From IMG/VR virus record IMGVR_UViG_3300044986_000091, positions 1-43,381 of that record: a stretch of 43,381 nucleotides of DNA; one strand, 5' to 3'. Numbering within the stretch: position 1 is the stretch's first letter; each line of letters starts with the position of its first letter. Position numbers and translations under genes: made by a program. This DNA is from a virus. The notes beneath the pieces were generated by a model. That model saw only the letters and a program-made list of their open reading frames with translations. It had not been told where the DNA came from and did no database searches. Of this stretch, positions 18,896-40,920 are shown piece by piece.

Positions 18896-18926
18896 TTTGA
18901 TACCAGTTATGCGTGTGCGCGAGAGG
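18896..18926 (+). repeat. TTTGATACCAGTTATGCG repeat, copy 1
   Basis: TTTGATACCAGTTATGCG followed by TGTGCGCGAGAGG. Copies lie at 19483 and 20292, each just after a terminator. Function unknown: operator, promoter part or recombination site. Confidence 0.75.
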
Positions 18927-19482: not shown

Positions 19483-19500
19483 TTTGATACCAGTTATGCG
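19483..19500 (+). repeat. TTTGATACCAGTTATGCG repeat, copy 2
   Basis: An exact copy of the 18-base core, followed here by AGAGCGCGGGCG instead of the TGTGCGCGAGAGG extension of copies 1 and 3. Confidence 0.75.
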
Positions 19501-20291: not shown

Positions 20292-20322
20292 TTTGATACC
20301 AGTTCTGCGTGTGCGCGAGAGG
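20292..20322 (+). repeat. TTTGATACCAGTTCTGCG repeat, copy 3
   Basis: Matches copy 1 over about 30 bases, including the TGTGCGCGAGAGG extension, with one core change (A to C). It follows the cassette C terminator, but no intact promoter PA/PB/PC match comes after it; only AGTTACGATTTTGCAG at about 20363 is reminiscent. Confidence 0.7.
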
Positions 20323-20428
20323 GGGGCGCTTTTGCGCGAAGCAAGGCCGCGCTTGACCGCGCAGTTACGATTTTGCAGAGCATTTAAACGCCGCGCAGAA
20401 CGTCGCAGGCTGCGTCAGACCGCGCCTT

Positions 20429-20834
20429 GTGTCAGTTTTTGCCCCGTCTGTGTCAAAAGTGTCAGCGAAAATTTTCATTTTGACACAGGGTTTTCGCAGC
20501 ATAAGTGTTTGATTTGCTTGGTAAAAATGACGTTTGGTCAAAGATTTGTGTCAATTGTGTCAACTTTTTTCAGATAGGGGGGCCGAAAACAGGGTCAACA
20601 GGTTCGAGGGAGAGGGGACGGCAAGTGCATGACCCAACCCGTTTTGGAGCCGTCCTATCCCAAAAAACCCGACACAATTGACACAATCCCTCTTCTTCTT
20701 CTTTTTCTTAAAAATAAATAATAATAAAATCATAGACTTACACCCACTTCTTCCCACTCCACCTATCAATTTCGTGTGCTATTCCATAACTTTGATTTTT
20801 GACACAGTTGACACAACTGACACAGCCCCGACAC
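20429..20834. repeat. Iteron-like GTGTCA / TGACAC cluster with 9-bp periodicity
   Basis: GTGTCA starts at 20429, 20450, 20459, 20548 and 20557. TGACAC starts at 20481, 20679, 20800, 20809 and 20818. CGACAC variants start at 20670 and 20829. Neighbouring copies are exactly 9 bp apart in five places. Those on the left mostly read GTGTCA and those on the right TGACAC, flanking the AT-rich block. Confidence 0.8.
20691..20740. other. AT-rich block, possible DNA-unwinding element
   Basis: A pyrimidine run (TCTTCTTCTTCTTTTTC) followed by an A/T-only stretch (AAAAATAAATAATAATAAAA), much richer in A+T than the surroundings, lying between the two groups of hexamer repeats. Confidence 0.5.
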
Positions 20835-20952
20835 AGCCCCCCCAGAAATGCATAGCGTTTTGTGTACCTATCTGGGCTAGACAACCCTTTAAACGTTCTA
20901 TAACATTCCTTTCACAACGCAGCACCGTGCTGCGGCAGACAGGAGAGCAGAC

Positions 20953-26798: not shown

Positions 26799-26914
26799 TT
26801 ACTTGGCTTAAAAGAGTCTTACGTGACTGGCGATGGCGCAGACTGAACGAGTGGGCGCACGTGCCGCCGCCAGAGTGGGCAGCGAAGCGCGGCTCTGGGA
26901 GGGTTTACTGGTGA
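26795..26914 (+). CDS. 39-residue Trp/Arg-rich microprotein
   Basis: ATG at 26795 follows GCAGGAGGCAAC (GGAGG) and overlaps the methyltransferase stop (ATGA). The stop TGA (26912-26914) overlaps the GTG start of the TPR-glycosyltransferase. The product starts MITWLKRVLRDWRWRRLNEW and ends RGSGRVYW, with seven Trp, amphipathic and basic. It could anchor the following enzyme to the membrane or serve only for translational coupling. Confidence 0.6.
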   Translation: MITWLKRVLRDWRWRRLNEWAHVPPPEWAAKRGSGRVYW

Positions 26915-28809
26915 AAGCCCCAAGAATAGGCAAGATCGCCACTCCCAAGAGAGAGGAAAAACAGTCAAAGACTTTGATGGACATGGCGCAGCATGTCTAC
27001 AAGGTTGGAGTAGATACTGCCAACGAGGGAAAATATAACGACGCGATTGGGTATCTGGAGAATCTCAACATGGCATTGCCGTTATTCACGGCATCCATGC
27101 TTCAGACCGGGCGGTGTCATTGGGAGATGCACCGTTGGGAACTTGCACGAAAGTATTTTGAGACCGCCGTACGACTTGAGCCAGAGAACGACGACGCAGG
27201 GTGGACTGTTGGGCTTTTATCCCTTCAGATGGGCGACTTCAAAGCGGGATGGCAAGGTTACGAACGTAGATGGGGGAGTAAGACTTTTAATTCCCCACGA
27301 TTACATACCAAGCGCCCCATGTGGGAGCGTGGCAAACACAAACGTCCTATCGTCTGGTGTGAGCAGGGTATCGGTGATCAGATTCTTTACGGATCACTGA
27401 TTGAAGCGTTGGCGCGAGAGTGCGAACACGTAACTGTACTAATAGATCTGCGACTGGTCGGACTGTTTGAGCGTGGGTGCAAGGCTCCGAATGTAACTTT
27501 TTTATCTCACAGTTCGCGGATAAAGATGAAAGAGCATGACTCGCATCTTCCGATTGCGAGTTTGGGTAGATTGTTTATTAAACGAGTGTGGGATATCCCG
27601 TTCCATGTTTCAGAAGGTTATTTGGCTTCTGATCCATACAGAGTCAAAGAGTTACGCAAAGACTTGGGATTCAGCGACGAACAGTTTGTAGTAGGCATAT
27701 CTTGGCACAGTAACGCTCCTAGCATTGGACAGCACAAGTCTGTGCCGTTGGAGCAATTTAAACCTATCCTTGACACACCGTATTTAAAGTTCATCAACCT
27801 TCAGTACGGCGAAGCGCAGAAGGAAGGTATCGACTTTCACCCGAACCTTATTACGACGCATATTGATACGTTCTTGGACATGGAGAACGTAGCGGCGTTG
27901 ATTGACCTGTGCGATGTGATTATTTCGCCATCGTGTGCGACCGTACATCTGGCAGGGGCGATGGGTAAAGATGTTCTACTTCTTGATGCCAACAAACTTT
28001 GGTACTGGAATAGCCGCCTTGGAAACGAAAGCATGTGGTACAGCGGCGTAAAGATTTATCAGCGCGAGAACATGAACGCGCCGTGGGACTTGCAGTTGAA
28101 GCATGTCAAAGAAGAGTTAGATCTGCGATTGGATTTTAACGGCAGACGAGTGCGCGACAACTTTGTATTCATGTATGTGGGTGACGATATTTCTGGACCA
28201 CAGAAGATGGTCAAATCAATTCTGCGGCATAACCCAGACGCCAATATCATTATGTGTACTGATCAAACCACACCGGATGTGCTAGGTGTGACTGACCGCA
28301 GAGAGTTTGATCTTGATCGTGCTGAGTTAATGACATCACGGCTCAAGTGTTTTGCTGAATTGAAGTTTGCAGAACCCGCGCTTTATATCGATACCGATAT
28401 GATCTTTATTGAGCGCGTCGAGGTAGACAAATTGTTAGGCGAGAACGAGATCGCTATGTGTCGTCGAGACTTTCAGAAAGACGTTCAGTTCAACCCGTAT
28501 CAGCGCGGGATAGACTTTGCTGAATACGCTGAGATGACTATAGACGACGTATACCCGTTTGTTGCTTGTGCCACCGCGACCCGTAATGGTGATCCGTGGA
28601 TTGAAATGTACGCCATGTTGAACGACATGGATAAGAAGTTTCGTAAATGGTACGGCGATCAAGAAGCGTTGAGAGAGTACGCCAAGAAGCACAAGTGCGG
28701 CGAGATGCCTGAGTCCATAGTCGGGTGTCTGCCAGAGTTTAATCACGACGGTGCGAAGATCCTGCATTACAAGGGCGAAGCACGTAAACAACAATTTGAG
28801 GCTGTGTGA
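26911..28809 (+). CDS. TPR - glycosyltransferase (GT-B) - glycosyltransferase (GT-A) fusion protein
   Basis: 632 residues from GTG at 26911, preceded by GGAGGG and overlapping the microprotein stop; an ATG at 26833 lacks a ribosome site. Residues about 20-110 are TPR-like (DTANEGKYNDAIGYLENL, ARKYFETAVRLEPEND, GDFKAGWQGYERRW). Residues about 120-400 resemble GT9/GT41-type GT-B enzymes (WCEQGIGDQILYGSLIEAL, VGISWHSN, VIISPSCATVHLAGAMGK). Residues about 415-632 are a second GT domain with a DxD motif in LYIDTDMIF (about 491-499). Such TPR-GT9 architecture is known in phages and bacteria. Target (virion protein, host surface or DNA) unknown. Confidence 0.8.
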   Translation: MKAPRIGKIATPKREEKQSKTLMDMAQHVYKVGVDTANEGKYNDAIGYLENLNMALPLFTASMLQTGRCHWEMHRWELARKYFETAVRLEPENDDAGWTVGLLSLQMGDFKAGWQGYERRWGSKTFNSPRLHTKRPMWERGKHKRPIVWCEQGIGDQILYGSLIEALARECEHVTVLIDLRLVGLFERGCKAPNVTFLSHSSRIKMKEHDSHLPIASLGRLFIKRVWDIPFHVSEGYLASDPYRVKELRKDLGFSDEQFVVGISWHSNAPSIGQHKSVPLEQFKPILDTPYLKFINLQYGEAQKEGIDFHPNLITTHIDTFLDMENVAALIDLCDVIISPSCATVHLAGAMGKDVLLLDANKLWYWNSRLGNESMWYSGVKIYQRENMNAPWDLQLKHVKEELDLRLDFNGRRVRDNFVFMYVGDDISGPQKMVKSILRHNPDANIIMCTDQTTPDVLGVTDRREFDLDRAELMTSRLKCFAELKFAEPALYIDTDMIFIERVEVDKLLGENEIAMCRRDFQKDVQFNPYQRGIDFAEYAEMTIDDVYPFVACATATRNGDPWIEMYAMLNDMDKKFRKWYGDQEALREYAKKHKCGEMPESIVGCLPEFNHDGAKILHYKGEARKQQFEAV

Positions 28810-29477
28810 TGAAAGTCTTTATTGGTTGGGACAGCCGCGAGGACATCGCGTATCAGGTGTGCCGAGAGTCGTTACTCAGGCATACATCCATTCCGCTCGA
28901 CATTCAGCCGATCAAGCAACAGGAAATGCGTGAGCGCAACCTGTACTGGCGGGAGCATGACCCGCTGTCATCGACGGAGTTTTCCTTCACCCGTTTCCTT
29001 GTGCCGCACCTTTGCAAGCACGAAGGGTGGGCGGTGTTCATGGACTGTGACTTTCTCTGGCGAGGCGACATTGCTGCGCTTGAGGACTACATGAACCCGT
29101 ACTACGGGGCGCTTGTGGTTAAGCATGACTACAAACCGAAAGAATCTACGAAGATGGACGGCGCTGCACAGCACCAGTATCCGCGAAAGAATTGGTCGAG
29201 CATGATCCTGTGGAACTGTGGGCATCCGTTACTCAAGACGCTAACTCCTGAGATTGTGAACCGCGAGACAGGGATGTACCTACATCAGTTACGGTTCTTG
29301 TGGGATGCCACCATCGGTGACTTGCCTATCGCGTATAACTATTTAGAGGGTTGGCATACGAAGAATGACTGCCCGAACCCACAAGCCGTTCACTTCACTC
29401 GCGGTGGCCCTTGGTTCAAGGACTGGGGTAACGTCGAGTACGCAGAAGAGTGGATGGCGGTAGCGAAGGAGATTTGA
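28809..29477 (+). CDS. Glycosyltransferase, GT8-like, with DxD motif
   Basis: 222 residues from ATG at 28809, in a TGATG overlap with the previous gene. MKVFIGWDSREDIAYQVC is a typical GT-A start in phage and bacterial small glycosyltransferases. The metal-binding DxD is FMDCDFLW (Asp79, Asp81). Later AVHFTRGGPWFKDW gives the conserved HxxGxxKPW-like end of GT8 enzymes. Two GT genes in a row, one a double domain, suggest multi-step glycan building. Confidence 0.82.
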   Translation: MKVFIGWDSREDIAYQVCRESLLRHTSIPLDIQPIKQQEMRERNLYWREHDPLSSTEFSFTRFLVPHLCKHEGWAVFMDCDFLWRGDIAALEDYMNPYYGALVVKHDYKPKESTKMDGAAQHQYPRKNWSSMILWNCGHPLLKTLTPEIVNRETGMYLHQLRFLWDATIGDLPIAYNYLEGWHTKNDCPNPQAVHFTRGGPWFKDWGNVEYAEEWMAVAKEI

Positions 29478-30139: not shown

Positions 30140-30305
30140 TATTTTGGATTTGATCCGTGATCTTCCACGCGAGATCAACGATGCATCGACTACGACAGAG
30201 ATGAAGTTCTTAACTGTGGGTGGCGTGTTGTGGGCCTGCCACTACGAGATTAAACGACTACGGGAAGAGATAGCGGAACTAAAGAAAGGTAAAAAACGTG
30301 AGTAA
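30123..30305 (+). CDS. Small phage protein (ASTTTEMKFLTVGGVLWA family)
   Basis: 60 residues, GTG start (GAGG 8 bases upstream). The segment NDASTTTEMKFLTVGGVLWA followed by a Glu/Lys coiled coil (IKRLREEIAELKKGK) is a pattern I recognise from small phage proteins of unknown function. It overlaps the following fusion gene by eight bases. Confidence 0.65.
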   Translation: MEIEDDILDLIRDLPREINDASTTTEMKFLTVGGVLWACHYEIKRLREEIAELKKGKKRE

Positions 30306-31908
30306 CTTGGAAAGCACTTTCACTTATATCTACGAGAACAACCATTGGCACGGGACTGATAGCGTTAGTGGCCCGGGGTCGAGCATGGCTTACACGGAAA
30401 CCATCCGTAAGCAGTTACCCGAAATCTTTAAGTACTTTTCGATTAAAAAAGTATTTGACGCTCCCTGCGGTGACTTTAACTGGATGCGGCACGTGTTGCC
30501 GAATACTGATGTGGAATACGTGGGTGCAGATATCGTGCGCCCGTTGATAGAGCGTTTAAATGCAGAGCACAGAAGTGACAAGGTTTCTTTTGTGCATATG
30601 GATCTGACCAAAGATCCGTACCCCAAGGCAGACTTGATGATCTGCCGCGACTGTATCCATCATTTGTCACACAAAGACGCCAAGGCACTACTTAATAACT
30701 TCTTGAAGTCCAAGATTCCTTACCTTCTGACGACGACGTTTACAGGTACGGTCAACACCGACATCAAAACAGGGGGTTTTAGAGCCCTCGACATGTGCAA
30801 GCCGCCTTACAACTTTCCTTCCGAAGTACTTGCAAATGTAGTTGAAGAAAGGTTTAGTAACGGCGTAGTCCGAGAGGTCTCGCTTTGGAGTCGAGATCAA
30901 ATACTTAAAGCAATGAGATTTAAACAAGTGGCCCCCAAAATTTTTATAAGCATTATTTCGTACCGAGATCCTTTGCTCATGAGCACGGTCATGTCGGCAT
31001 ACAACAACGCGAGACACAAACAGGGACTAGCGTTTGGAATCGTTGATCAGGCGTATCCCGGTGAGTTCTTCAACGCCAAAGAATTAGGATACGAGTCGCA
31101 GATTCGGTATCTCAGAGTCGATCCTGAGTACGCACGGGGAGCGTGCTGGGCTCGCAACTCTGCACAGGCCATGTGGAACGGTGAGGACTACTTCATGCAG
31201 GTGGATTCCCACACGCTGTTCGACGCGGACTGGGATGAGACTTTGATCAACGCATACTTGAATCTGAAGGACTATCACGAGAAGCCTGTCATTACGGCTT
31301 ACCCTCACTCGTTTGTAGCGGTTGATGACAATATCAACAACCTGAAGAAGTCCAAGTACAACGGGCTTCTGACACTTGTTGCGGATGGCCCGGGTTCTTT
31401 CAACAAAGACATGTACGTCAGCACTCATGCTCGCGTCTTAGGCAGGAATGAACCGACCCATGCGTTCTTGCTGAGCGCCAACTGTCTTTTTACGGAAGGC
31501 ACGGTATGTGAAGAGGTGCCGTACGATCCATATCTATACTTCTCTGGCGAAGAACATTCCCTTGCACTACGGCTTTGGACAAATGGATACAACCTGTTTC
31601 ATATCCCTTCGATCCCGGTGTATCACCATTACGGTAGGAGCTATCGCACGACGGTGTGGAGTGATGAGTTCATCGAGAAGAACCGCCCGCAGAAATGGTA
31701 CAACTACGACAAACATTCCAAGTCACGTTTGTCGAAGATCGTTACAGGCGAATTAACTGGGGTGTACGGGATCGGTAACAAGCGTACGTTAGAGCAGTAC
31801 ATTGAGTGGTCAGGGATCGACTACCACAACAAGACTTTGGCGACCAAGGCGCTGACTGGCGATGGCATCTTTGATCATAACTACAAGGAGCCGTTGGTGC
31901 TGGTATGA
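30298..31908 (+). CDS. Methyltransferase - GlcNAc-type glycosyltransferase fusion protein
   Basis: 536 residues, GTG start overlapping the previous gene. Residues about 1-205 are a class I methyltransferase: KVFDAPCGDFNWM (51-63), VEYVGADIV with acidic Asp78, and LMICRDCIHHLS. Residues about 213-480 match the GlcNAc glycosyltransferase family (GT60, as in Skp1 hydroxyproline GlcNAc-transferase): IFISIISYRDPLLMSTVMSA, RGACWARNSAQAMW (about 280-293) and the metal site MQVDSHTLF (Asp302). Fusing methylation and glycosylation in one chain suggests one modified sugar product. The substrate is unknown. Confidence 0.82.
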   Translation: MSNLESTFTYIYENNHWHGTDSVSGPGSSMAYTETIRKQLPEIFKYFSIKKVFDAPCGDFNWMRHVLPNTDVEYVGADIVRPLIERLNAEHRSDKVSFVHMDLTKDPYPKADLMICRDCIHHLSHKDAKALLNNFLKSKIPYLLTTTFTGTVNTDIKTGGFRALDMCKPPYNFPSEVLANVVEERFSNGVVREVSLWSRDQILKAMRFKQVAPKIFISIISYRDPLLMSTVMSAYNNARHKQGLAFGIVDQAYPGEFFNAKELGYESQIRYLRVDPEYARGACWARNSAQAMWNGEDYFMQVDSHTLFDADWDETLINAYLNLKDYHEKPVITAYPHSFVAVDDNINNLKKSKYNGLLTLVADGPGSFNKDMYVSTHARVLGRNEPTHAFLLSANCLFTEGTVCEEVPYDPYLYFSGEEHSLALRLWTNGYNLFHIPSIPVYHHYGRSYRTTVWSDEFIEKNRPQKWYNYDKHSKSRLSKIVTGELTGVYGIGNKRTLEQYIEWSGIDYHNKTLATKALTGDGIFDHNYKEPLVLV

Positions 31909-37696: not shown

Positions 37697-38011
37697 ATGG
37701 CACGACCTTACGGAGATAAATTTCTCATTGCTCTGGAGCGGTCCACGGGTAATACCCTTGGACTTCAGTTAGCGAAATTGTGTGTGAAGGCAAACCTGCC
37801 TGCCACGATGGTAGCGATTGCGTTGGAAGTATCTTCAACGACGGTCTACAAATGGTTTCGCGGACAAGGAGTTAGAGAACACAAGCGTAAGGCAGTGGAG
37901 GTCTTTATGGACCTCTTGAAGGAAGATCTTGCCAACGGAGTGTTGCCAGTCAAAGATGTGAACGCTGCCGCAGCGTACATGGAATCGATGCTTGGCAAGC
38001 CAATCCGCTGA
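37697..38011 (+). CDS. HTH DNA-binding protein
   Basis: 104 residues. A helix-turn-helix lies in LPATMVAIALEVSSTTVYKW then FRGQGVREH. The rest is helical with a basic end. Its size and lone HTH fit a transcriptional regulator or replication accessory. A terminator follows 20 bases later, so it ends the helicase-SSB-type operon. Confidence 0.72.
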   Translation: MARPYGDKFLIALERSTGNTLGLQLAKLCVKANLPATMVAIALEVSSTTVYKWFRGQGVREHKRKAVEVFMDLLKEDLANGVLPVKDVNAAAAYMESMLGKPIR

Positions 38012-38070: not shown

Positions 38071-40920
38071 ATGAGAAAACAATTTTACGAAAAAGCATTA
38101 CCAACGCAGGGCATTTACTGCGTTGCGATGATTCACGCAGAGACCAAACGAACGCGACATGAGTACGTCTATAACGTAGATGAGTTGGAAGAGGTACTGG
38201 GTAAGTACTCAAGTCAGACTGATTACAACGTCTACGTTGCACCGTGTTCGTTTCAGGACGAGAGCCGCAATTCCAACAATGCCGCTTTTGGTCGCTCGTT
38301 TTTCATAGACCTTGATGTCAATCACGGTAGCGTCTGCTACACGAGTAAAGAAGAAGCTTTAAACGCACTTGAGGAATTCGTTGCCGAGCATGACCTGCCT
38401 CCCCCTGTCCGCATCGATTCGGGCGGCGGTATACAGGCGTACTGGCTTTTCGAGGACGACGTAGAAGCCGAGGAGTGGAAGCTTGTCGCAGCACTGTTCA
38501 AACAGTTCTGCATGGACAAGGGACTGCTGATCGACCCGGCTGTGACCGCTGATGCTGCGCGGATCATGCGCTGTCCGGAGACTATGAACCTTCGGGTGCA
38601 GACGCCATCCAAGTTTATTGACAACGACTTCAATCAGTACGACTTCAGTGCATTTAAATCTTTCTTAGGCGGCGAGGAAGTGCCGCAGACCATCGAGCAG
38701 ATCAAGGTCAAGACTCGTGGTATGGATGAAGAGACGAAGGCCATCGCCCGTCTCGACAACTTTGAAGACTCGTTCGCTGTGCTGGCTGAGAAGAGCCTCT
38801 CTGGCGACGGGTGCAACCAGATCAAATACGCCATCGAGAACCGCGAGACCCTGCCATACGGTCTTTGGTTCGGGGCTTTGTCTGTCGCGCAGCGGTGCGT
38901 GGATCGAGATGCTGCCATCAAGGCCGTCTCTGAAGATCACCCGGACTATACGTTTGAAAAGGCAAGCCTCAAAGCACAAGAGACGACTAAGGCGAGTGGC
39001 CCGTGGACTTGCACTAAGTTCGGGGAAGAGAACCCGGACGGCTGCGAGGGTTGCCCATTCAAAGGCAAGATCACTTCACCGATTGCCTTGGCGCGGAAGA
39101 TCCGGATGCCGACAGAGGCGACGGCTCCGCTGCCTGAACTTGACGACACGGTGTGGGGAGACGCTGACAATCAGGATTTGCTGATCTTTCCTGAGTACCT
39201 TGAGCCGTTTAGCCGCAGCGCCCGGGGCAGCATCATGTACACCCCACCGGCTACCGTCGATAAGACGGGCAAGGTGACGCAACCGCTTCCGATAGAGTTG
39301 TTAACTCGCCCTGTGTACCCATACAAGCGGATGTTCAGTCCGCACGACGGCGAGTGCCTGATGATTCGCACGGTGATGCCGTTTGATGGGCATCGAGAAT
39401 TTATGTTGCCGGTGGATCACGTGTACTCATCGGAGCACTTAACGAAGGCGGTGGTGCAGAGCGGGGCGACGTTCGACCCTGACAAGACCAAGTTCGTCAT
39501 GAAGTATTTCATTCGCTGGGCAGAGTACCTGTCGAGCATCGGGAGAGCAGAACAGATGCGTATGCAGATGGGATGGACGGAAGACCGTGACGGATTCGTC
39601 ATTGGTAACACCGAGATCAAGTCTAATGGTGAAATCATACGTTCAGCCGCATCGCCGCTGGTGCGTAATGTGGCACAGCATTTAAAGCCTGTTGGTGACT
39701 ACGCAACGTGGAAGTGGGCAACAACGATCTTTGACCGCCCGGGCTTTGAGATGCAAGCGTTCGGAATGCTGACCGGGTTCGGCTCTCCGCTTATGAGCCT
39801 GACGACCGTAGCAGGTGCCTCCCTTTGTTTCTTGAGCGCCCACTCTGGCACCGGTAAAACGGGTTCGCTCTACGCCTCTATCAGCATCTGGGGACAGCCC
39901 AAAGAGCTAAGTCTTGTGGATCAGGGCGCGACCCAGAATGGTTTTATCGGGCGATATCTGAACTTGAAAAACCTGCCGCTGGGTATCGATGAAGCCTCAA
40001 ACGCCAAGCCAGAGGATCTTGCCAAGTTGATCCATGCCGTGTCACACGGCAAAGCCAAGATCCGTATGCAGTCTTCGGTTAACGCTGAACGTGAGCACGA
40101 GTCTTCGGCGTCGATGATTACGTTCTTCACCAGCAACCAGTCGATCTACAACAAGCTGGAGACTTTGAAGGGGAGTCCTGACGGTGAGATGGCTCGCTTG
40201 GTTGAGTTTAGACTGAAGCCACCAGATTGGTTCAATGACGATATTGGTATCGAGTACTTCGATAAGTTCCGGTTCAACTATGGACATGCCGGGATTGAGT
40301 TCATTCAGCACTACTTCAAGCGGGGCGAGCCTTACGTCAAGGCGCTCGTAGACAAGTGGTACAAACGATTCAACGAAGTGGTCGGCAACGAAACCGGCTA
40401 TCGGTTCTATCGCAACCTCGTGGCAGCGACGTTTGCTGGCGGTGAGTTAGCTATCGAGGCTGGGATCATTCAACTCGATATTGAGCGCGTATTCAGAGCC
40501 ATCATTTTAGAGATCATTCAATTGAAAGAAGACACGGTCAAACTCAACAACACGGATTACCCGGCGCTTATCACCGAGTTCTTCTTGGATCACTGGGCTG
40601 GTGTGCTGGTCTTGGAAGAGCCCGGTAAAGTTATTCAAGCACCCAGCTTAGGTAAGCCTGTTGTGGCTCGTAGCGAGATCTACAACAGCACGCACTACAT
40701 ATCCAAGTCAGCATTCAAGAAACTTTGCTTGGCCCCCAAGCAGATCAGCAGCAAAGAGTTTGAAGAAGCCATGAAGCCCCACGGGCTGGTGGTGGACCGC
40801 GAACGCATCACGAACAATTCAGGTTGGGGCAAGGGCCTGTACAACAACGCGATTGGCGTTTATGTGATCCGCGCCAAACTGCCGGAAGAGCTACTGAAGA
40901 AAGATGAATCGAATCCCTGA
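38071..40920 (+). CDS. Primase-helicase: PrimPol-like domain fused to SF3/DUF927-type ATPase
   Basis: 949 residues. The N-terminal primase part has FFIDLDV (77-83), RIDSGGGIQAYW (114-125) and LIDPAVTADAARIMRCPE (153-170), the pattern of archaeo-eukaryotic-type primases. A Cys pair with spacing CTKF...DGCEGCPF (about 325-340) may bind zinc. The C-terminal ATPase has Walker A HSGTGKT (591-597) and Walker B LGIDEAS (637-643), then TFFTSNQS, in the style of DUF927 helicases. No obvious ribosome site precedes ATG at 38071. Probably primes and unwinds for the family A polymerase. Confidence 0.88.
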   Translation: MRKQFYEKALPTQGIYCVAMIHAETKRTRHEYVYNVDELEEVLGKYSSQTDYNVYVAPCSFQDESRNSNNAAFGRSFFIDLDVNHGSVCYTSKEEALNALEEFVAEHDLPPPVRIDSGGGIQAYWLFEDDVEAEEWKLVAALFKQFCMDKGLLIDPAVTADAARIMRCPETMNLRVQTPSKFIDNDFNQYDFSAFKSFLGGEEVPQTIEQIKVKTRGMDEETKAIARLDNFEDSFAVLAEKSLSGDGCNQIKYAIENRETLPYGLWFGALSVAQRCVDRDAAIKAVSEDHPDYTFEKASLKAQETTKASGPWTCTKFGEENPDGCEGCPFKGKITSPIALARKIRMPTEATAPLPELDDTVWGDADNQDLLIFPEYLEPFSRSARGSIMYTPPATVDKTGKVTQPLPIELLTRPVYPYKRMFSPHDGECLMIRTVMPFDGHREFMLPVDHVYSSEHLTKAVVQSGATFDPDKTKFVMKYFIRWAEYLSSIGRAEQMRMQMGWTEDRDGFVIGNTEIKSNGEIIRSAASPLVRNVAQHLKPVGDYATWKWATTIFDRPGFEMQAFGMLTGFGSPLMSLTTVAGASLCFLSAHSGTGKTGSLYASISIWGQPKELSLVDQGATQNGFIGRYLNLKNLPLGIDEASNAKPEDLAKLIHAVSHGKAKIRMQSSVNAEREHESSASMITFFTSNQSIYNKLETLKGSPDGEMARLVEFRLKPPDWFNDDIGIEYFDKFRFNYGHAGIEFIQHYFKRGEPYVKALVDKWYKRFNEVVGNETGYRFYRNLVAATFAGGELAIEAGIIQLDIERVFRAIILEIIQLKEDTVKLNNTDYPALITEFFLDHWAGVLVLEEPGKVIQAPSLGKPVVARSEIYNSTHYISKSAFKKLCLAPKQISSKEFEEAMKPHGLVVDRERITNNSGWGKGLYNNAIGVYVIRAKLPEELLKKDESNP

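Follow-up and report, generated by a model that had tools for sequence, protein, structure and literature searches.

Replication origins are unknown for most environmental phages. The 43,381-bp window analysed here (one IMG/VR virus record at its full length) raises the question of whether a dense field of short repeats in a tailed phage is such an origin and, if so, which phage protein reads it. We propose that both can be read from the sequence in this case, the origin directly and its reader as a probable assignment. No exact terminal repeat was found in the record, and the completeness of the genome is thus unproven.

The repeat field

Exact copies of TGACAC or its complement GTGTCA begin at positions 20429, 20450, 20459, 20481, 20548, 20557, 20679, 20800, 20809 and 20818, which is 10 of the 27 copies in the whole window. 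Two CGACAC variants lie at 20670 and 20829, and five neighbouring pairs are exactly 9 bp apart (20450/20459, 20548/20557, 20670/20679, 20800/20809 and 20809/20818). A first-pass annotation had reported ten exact hexamers, two variants and five such pairs in 406 bp, and recounting and shuffling both confirm it. In 2000 dinucleotide shuffles of the 721-bp gap the hexamer occurred 0.32 times on average and four times at most, with no hexamer whatever reaching ten copies, and 60 whole-window shuffles gave a top hexamer count of 4-7 per 406 bp, against the 10 observed.

The field thus shows what characterizes an iteron origin, a short site repeated several times in the same direction at a fixed interval, and it also has the adjacent A/T-rich region expected for unwinding, the A+T-richest 80 bp of the entire window (20661-20740) lying inside it. 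The strand layout described earlier, with left and right groups facing opposite ways, is correct overall, except that the left-side copy at 20481 points right. The A/T block had been placed between the two groups, whereas its actual position is within the right one, in the interval 20685-20800. The statement that this is the only large gene-free gap is doubtful because the region from 17.9 to 19.5 kb is likewise without a convincing gene. Two features had been overlooked, namely a 50-nt imperfect inverted repeat, which forms the core of the field and is kept in near relatives, and two IHF-like sites that flank this core in inverted orientation (Table 1). An Rfam search gave no match.

The field is bordered on one side by a GP88-family gene and its terminator-like sequence, and on the other by a promoter-like site serving the rightward genes. 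Leftward genes include those for portal, terminase and head protein, while the rightward ones encode a family A polymerase, a PD-(D/E)XK nuclease, a SNF2-type helicase, a VRR-type nuclease (named from its resemblance to annotated relatives) and, at 38071-40920, a DUF927 helicase joined to an archaeo-eukaryotic primase (AEP). GC skew, put forward earlier as a check on the origin, does reverse its sign in this region, but it proves nothing because gene direction changes there too.

Table 1. Features of the predicted origin and of its candidate reader proteins (positions in the window).
Feature	Position	Strand	Details
Left outer iteron array	20428..20486	-	TGTGTCA at 20428 and 20449; GTGTCA at 20459 (minus); one TGACACA at 20481 (plus)
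Left IHF-like site	20502..20514	-	AATCAAACACTTA, exact match to WATCAANNNNTTR; the window has one other exact match
Core, imperfect inverted repeat carrying both inner pairs	20546..20686	.	50-nt arms 20546-20595 / 20637-20686, 76% complementary
Inner left tandem iteron pair	20547..20563	-	TGTGTCAATTGTGTCAA, 9-bp step; pair found in all aligned relatives
Inner right tandem iteron pair	20670..20686	+	CGACACAATTGACACAA, 9-bp step
A/T-only run	20708..20730	.	Probable unwinding element and/or A-tract beside IHF-like site; within the A+T-richest 80 bp
Right IHF-like site	20728..20740	+	AATCATAGACTTA, one mismatch to consensus; inverted relative to left site
Right outer iteron array	20800..20835	+	TGACACA at 20800, 20809 and 20818 (9-bp steps); CGACACA at 20829
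Sigma-70-like promoter for rightward early genes	20878..20906	+	TAGACA-N17-TAACAT; just downstream of predicted origin; kept in relatives
HTH protein	37697..38011	+	Directly upstream of primase-helicase gene; candidate binder of the first-pass annotation, not supported
Candidate initiator, AEP primase + DUF927 (MCM-like AAA+) helicase fusion	38071..40920	+	949 aa; Pfam DUF927 5.9e-18; Foldseek
C-terminal winged helix, proposed iteron-reading domain	40561..40884	+	Residues 831-938; divergence and fold match

Conservation of the field and switching of the iterons

An exact-motif scan for GACACANNNGACACA across 30 relatives of the primase-helicase returned only scattered one-mismatch matches. This apparent non-conservation arose because the iteron word had switched, as was seen on reading the homologous region. 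In G002, G003 and G005 the field keeps both its position and its layout, though its words are CCGCACA, CGGCACA and a mixture, respectively; the primases of the CCGCACA and CGGCACA phages are ~80% identical to that of the window. A k-mer search added TAGAACA fields in nine more distant relatives and a CGGAACA field in one other. In every core that could be resolved, two tandem pairs face opposite ways with their starts 121-135 bp apart, and the common plan of the fields adds outer arrays, an A/T block and IHF-like sites to these inverted pairs. The refuting condition named earlier, that the repeats would lack conservation in relatives, is answered because position and layout are kept, and this conservation of its pattern supports the reading of the field as almost certainly the replication origin of a tailed phage. 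The tandem step is 9 bp for TGACACA (apart from a single 8-bp pair in G081) and 8 bp for both TAGAACA and CGGAACA; the 9-bp step, once given a special meaning, is therefore simply site length plus spacer and no signature.

The left IHF-like site is kept in L237, G002 and G005 and, with one mismatch, in G003, and flanking pairs of such sites are also present in G002, G003, G005, G012 and G028. The motif ATCANNNACTTA, which we take to match the IHF consensus WATCAANNNNTTR, occurs in 13 of the 22 fields (shuffles gave 0.38), a significance that is overstated because the motif was discovered in the same fields, several of them related. Exact consensus sites number 17 in the fields where 0.74 would be expected from the whole-record rate, a ~23-fold excess. 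The AATAATAATAA block of the A/T run is kept in G002 and G003 and, less exactly, in G005.

Among 50,697 phage records, a nucleotide-level search with the field gave one marginal match. Three TGACACA copies at 9-bp steps occur in 29 IMG/VR contigs, compared with ~0.1 or fewer expected by a rough estimate; many of these have an inverted core, and their surroundings include either a divergent terminase gene at a distance of a few kb or an adjacent VapE or D5 helicase gene. Given that such fields also adjoin these unrelated helicases, the word is not tied to the primase-DUF927 protein, and its recurrence could reflect either convergence or the exchange of origins together with a reader domain.

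Some k-mer clusters, GCTCGCC (G011, G029), GGGGTTA (G013) and AGCCCAA (G047), were rejected as origins, being simple tandem repeats. A pure 9/18-bp tandem array beginning GGCGAGCATGGCGGACAC lies beside terminase genes in G011 and G029 (L113:2231-2462 and L138:1975-2215), near the position of the iteron field in relatives. Threefold TGACACANN was observed in 97 bacterial-genome contig stretches (L255-L334) from many phyla, far above chance; some are clearly longer simple arrays, and others could be prophage or plasmid origins.

The candidate initiator and its C-terminal domain

With the full-length model of the primase-helicase, the confidence of which is moderate (mean pLDDT 70), the first Foldseek matches were SCCmec Cch (5dgk) and SaPIbov1 Rep (8tch), both on the helicase, followed by primases including S-2L PrimPol and RSF1010 RepB' (6zp9 and 3h20 on the primase domain). 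The protein has the DUF927 AAA+ helicase core of the SaPIbov1 Rep/Cch fold, and it also ends in the C-terminal winged-helix domain of that type. A model of the C-terminal fragment alone (pLDDT 84-93 over fragment residues 31-110) aligns with residues 439-556 of Cch (5dgk_B) at Z 9.4 and with residues 449-567 of SaPIbov1 Rep (8tch_B) at Z 8.7, both above the next rows; a direct Foldseek search with this fragment gave no match under 0.001.

Divergence in the protein follows the iterons. Among the window, G002 and G003, identity is 52-66% over residues 840-938 and 81-85% over the remainder of the protein, and the ratio of C-terminal to remaining divergence is 3.2, 2.3 and 2.0 across the only three fully informative iteron switches, which are not mutually independent. 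Among the nine TAGAACA phages the C-terminal region varies less than the remainder (ratio 0-0.9), and G005 with its mixed iterons gives ratios of 0.8-1.3. In L001 and L009, whose origins are missing from the available sequence, the C-terminal domain is similar to that of the window (ratios 1.15 and 1.45), and iterons like TGACACA are predicted for them. When a 99-residue block was slid along the protein, residues 831-929 ranked highest of 86 blocks, with a quotient of 4.0 against a median of 0.8. Because the repeat word and this domain were swapped together, the evidence points to the C-terminal winged helix of the primase-helicase as the putative reader of the iterons.

Weighing other explanations

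The candidate binders originally named were the HTH protein at 37697 and the HTH-DUF3310 protein, either of which could read the iterons of an origin (the latter by its N-terminal HTH) and recruit the primase-helicase. The position of the HTH gene directly upstream of the primase-helicase gene holds in nearly all relatives, and the HTH of the DUF3310 protein differs among the window, G002 and G003. Against this, the recognition helix of the 37697 protein (SSTTVYKWFRGQG) is the same in the window and G002 despite their different iterons, its overall divergence (86% identity) shows no excess, and tblastn found no match to it in the 57-kb phage G062, which carries a TGACACA field. We consider recruitment by an HTH protein unlikely; the 37697 protein is not supported as the reader, and the DUF3310 protein is a less likely binder.

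It is a good deal harder to accept that the field is mainly regulatory, with a repressor on an operator array governing the early rightward promoter at 20878. That promoter is conserved and begins 43 bp downstream of the last iteron, and several repeats contain TTGACA, but 11-12 sites spread over the two flanks of an A/T block, together with IHF-like sites, go far beyond the needs of one promoter. The field moreover lies between two same-strand genes rather than at divergent promoters, and the inner pairs and their geometry are kept while the site sequence switches in step with the helicase domain. Scarcely more than a nominal chance is left to an origin in which, much as in RSF1010, the primase domain recognises the central inverted repeat as a single-strand initiation hairpin and the iterons are secondary. 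The 50-nt inverted repeat is real and the primase domain does resemble RepB' of RSF1010 (3h20, 3h25), yet neither in the window (z -1.0) nor in most relatives does the interior of the core fold better than its shuffled versions. The iterons themselves also account for some of the symmetry, and the interiors of other fields are A/T-rich.

Proposed mechanism

We therefore retain an origin read by the winged helix of the AEP primase-DUF927 helicase, and regard this assignment, together with the firing mechanism outlined here, as likely. The winged helix would bind the iterons as sites of 7-8 bp, and the two divergent inner pairs would position two helicase rings in opposite directions. Host IHF may bend the flanks such that the outer arrays fold back on the core, while the A/T-rich block beside the right inner pair would melt and allow the two opposed helicases to load. 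Replication would then be bidirectional, the fused primase domain making the first primers for the two outgoing forks and the phage family A polymerase presumably extending them.

Comparison with known replication systems

SaPI Reps recognise iterons by their C-terminal domain, and Cch is a DUF927 protein related to SaPIbov1 Rep (PMC7581432). The rep-ori systems of SaPIs and other phage-inducible chromosomal islands (SaPIbov1 Rep; EcCI elements) share with the window the initiator helicase fold (8tch, E 6.6e-11 with the whole model) and short iterons in two sets, accompanied by an A/T-rich region (PMC7581432, PMC6092414). In the window, two iteron sets likewise flank such a region, the run at 20708-20730 having the inner right pair on one side and the right array on the other; the block stands beside the core, however, and not between the two inner pairs, and IHF-like sites are present. 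The islands are satellites without full virion genes, whereas the window has its own portal, terminase and head protein genes, as a tailed phage does, and its helicase is fused to an AEP primase. The SaPI origin lies directly downstream of rep, in contrast to the predicted origin here (20.4-20.8 kb), which is 17 kb from the initiator gene (38.1-40.9 kb). We conclude that the window probably carries a SaPI-Rep-like rep/ori system within a tailed phage, with the initiator gene at this distance from the origin. The similar layout and the same helicase fold in tailed phages would bear on the ancestry of these satellites.

At the origins of SV40 T antigen and papillomavirus E1, two helicase rings facing opposite ways are loaded by short sites arranged in inverted groups next to an A/T tract. 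The window resembles these in its inverted short-site groups and A/T tract, and differs in that the origin-binding domain is N-terminal in those proteins (PMC7581432) and IHF is not involved there. SCCmec Cch (5dgk) is the closest match in both sequence (hmmsearch 1.4e-12) and fold, over the helicase and the C-terminal domain, although it has no AEP fusion, and we found no described iteron origin for it in the literature consulted. For AEP primase-helicase fusions of mobile elements, a C-terminal winged helix has been suggested to recognise the origin (Kazlauskas 2018, PMC5862659). The order of primase, helicase and winged helix is the same here; the role was inferred there from the fold alone, while in the present family origins are located and covary with the domain. 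A literature search for TGTGTCA gave nothing on phage origins, and in an incompletely covered literature we found no paper on the origins of these phages.

The family spans many metagenomic phages and one isolated Pseudomonas phage, Rollin, whose protein is 25% identical, the C-terminal domain included. Its record has TTGCATA repeats, three of them in a row at 9-bp steps, together with a AATAATAATAA block and an IHF consensus site (AATCAACCACTTA), and judged by these elements the Rollin field is analogous to that of the window. The corresponding gap of Rhizobium phage RHph_TM3_14A has two exact IHF consensus sites and no clear iteron word. About five palindromes of the kind AAAAGGTAGNAAGTTACTACCTTTT occur in and around the Rollin field (L352:1-500).

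The natural iteron switches provide a ready-made code table for a winged-helix initiator. It is conceivable, and we offer it as a tentative idea with a little less than an even chance of being right, that tailed phages keep one origin chassis of inverted iteron pairs, IHF-like bends and an A/T block while repeatedly swapping the recognition word along with the initiator winged helix. The origins of close relatives would then be mutually incompatible and define phage incompatibility groups, with the initiator acting from 17 kb away.

Other observations in the window

Between the small early genes and the polymerase lie genes at 26833-28809, 28806-29477 and 30298-31908 for glycosyltransferase-like proteins and a methyltransferase-like protein, one with tetratricopeptide-like repeats (translations judged by eye). 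An intergenic element beginning TTTGATACCAGTTNTGCG occurs three times on the plus strand (18898-18911, 19485-19498 and 20294-20307), the latter two copies coming shortly after terminator-like sequences. It is present in near and distant relatives (L104, L237, L147 with three copies, L131, L132, L137, L210 and L121), and is perhaps a phage promoter or an antitermination site.
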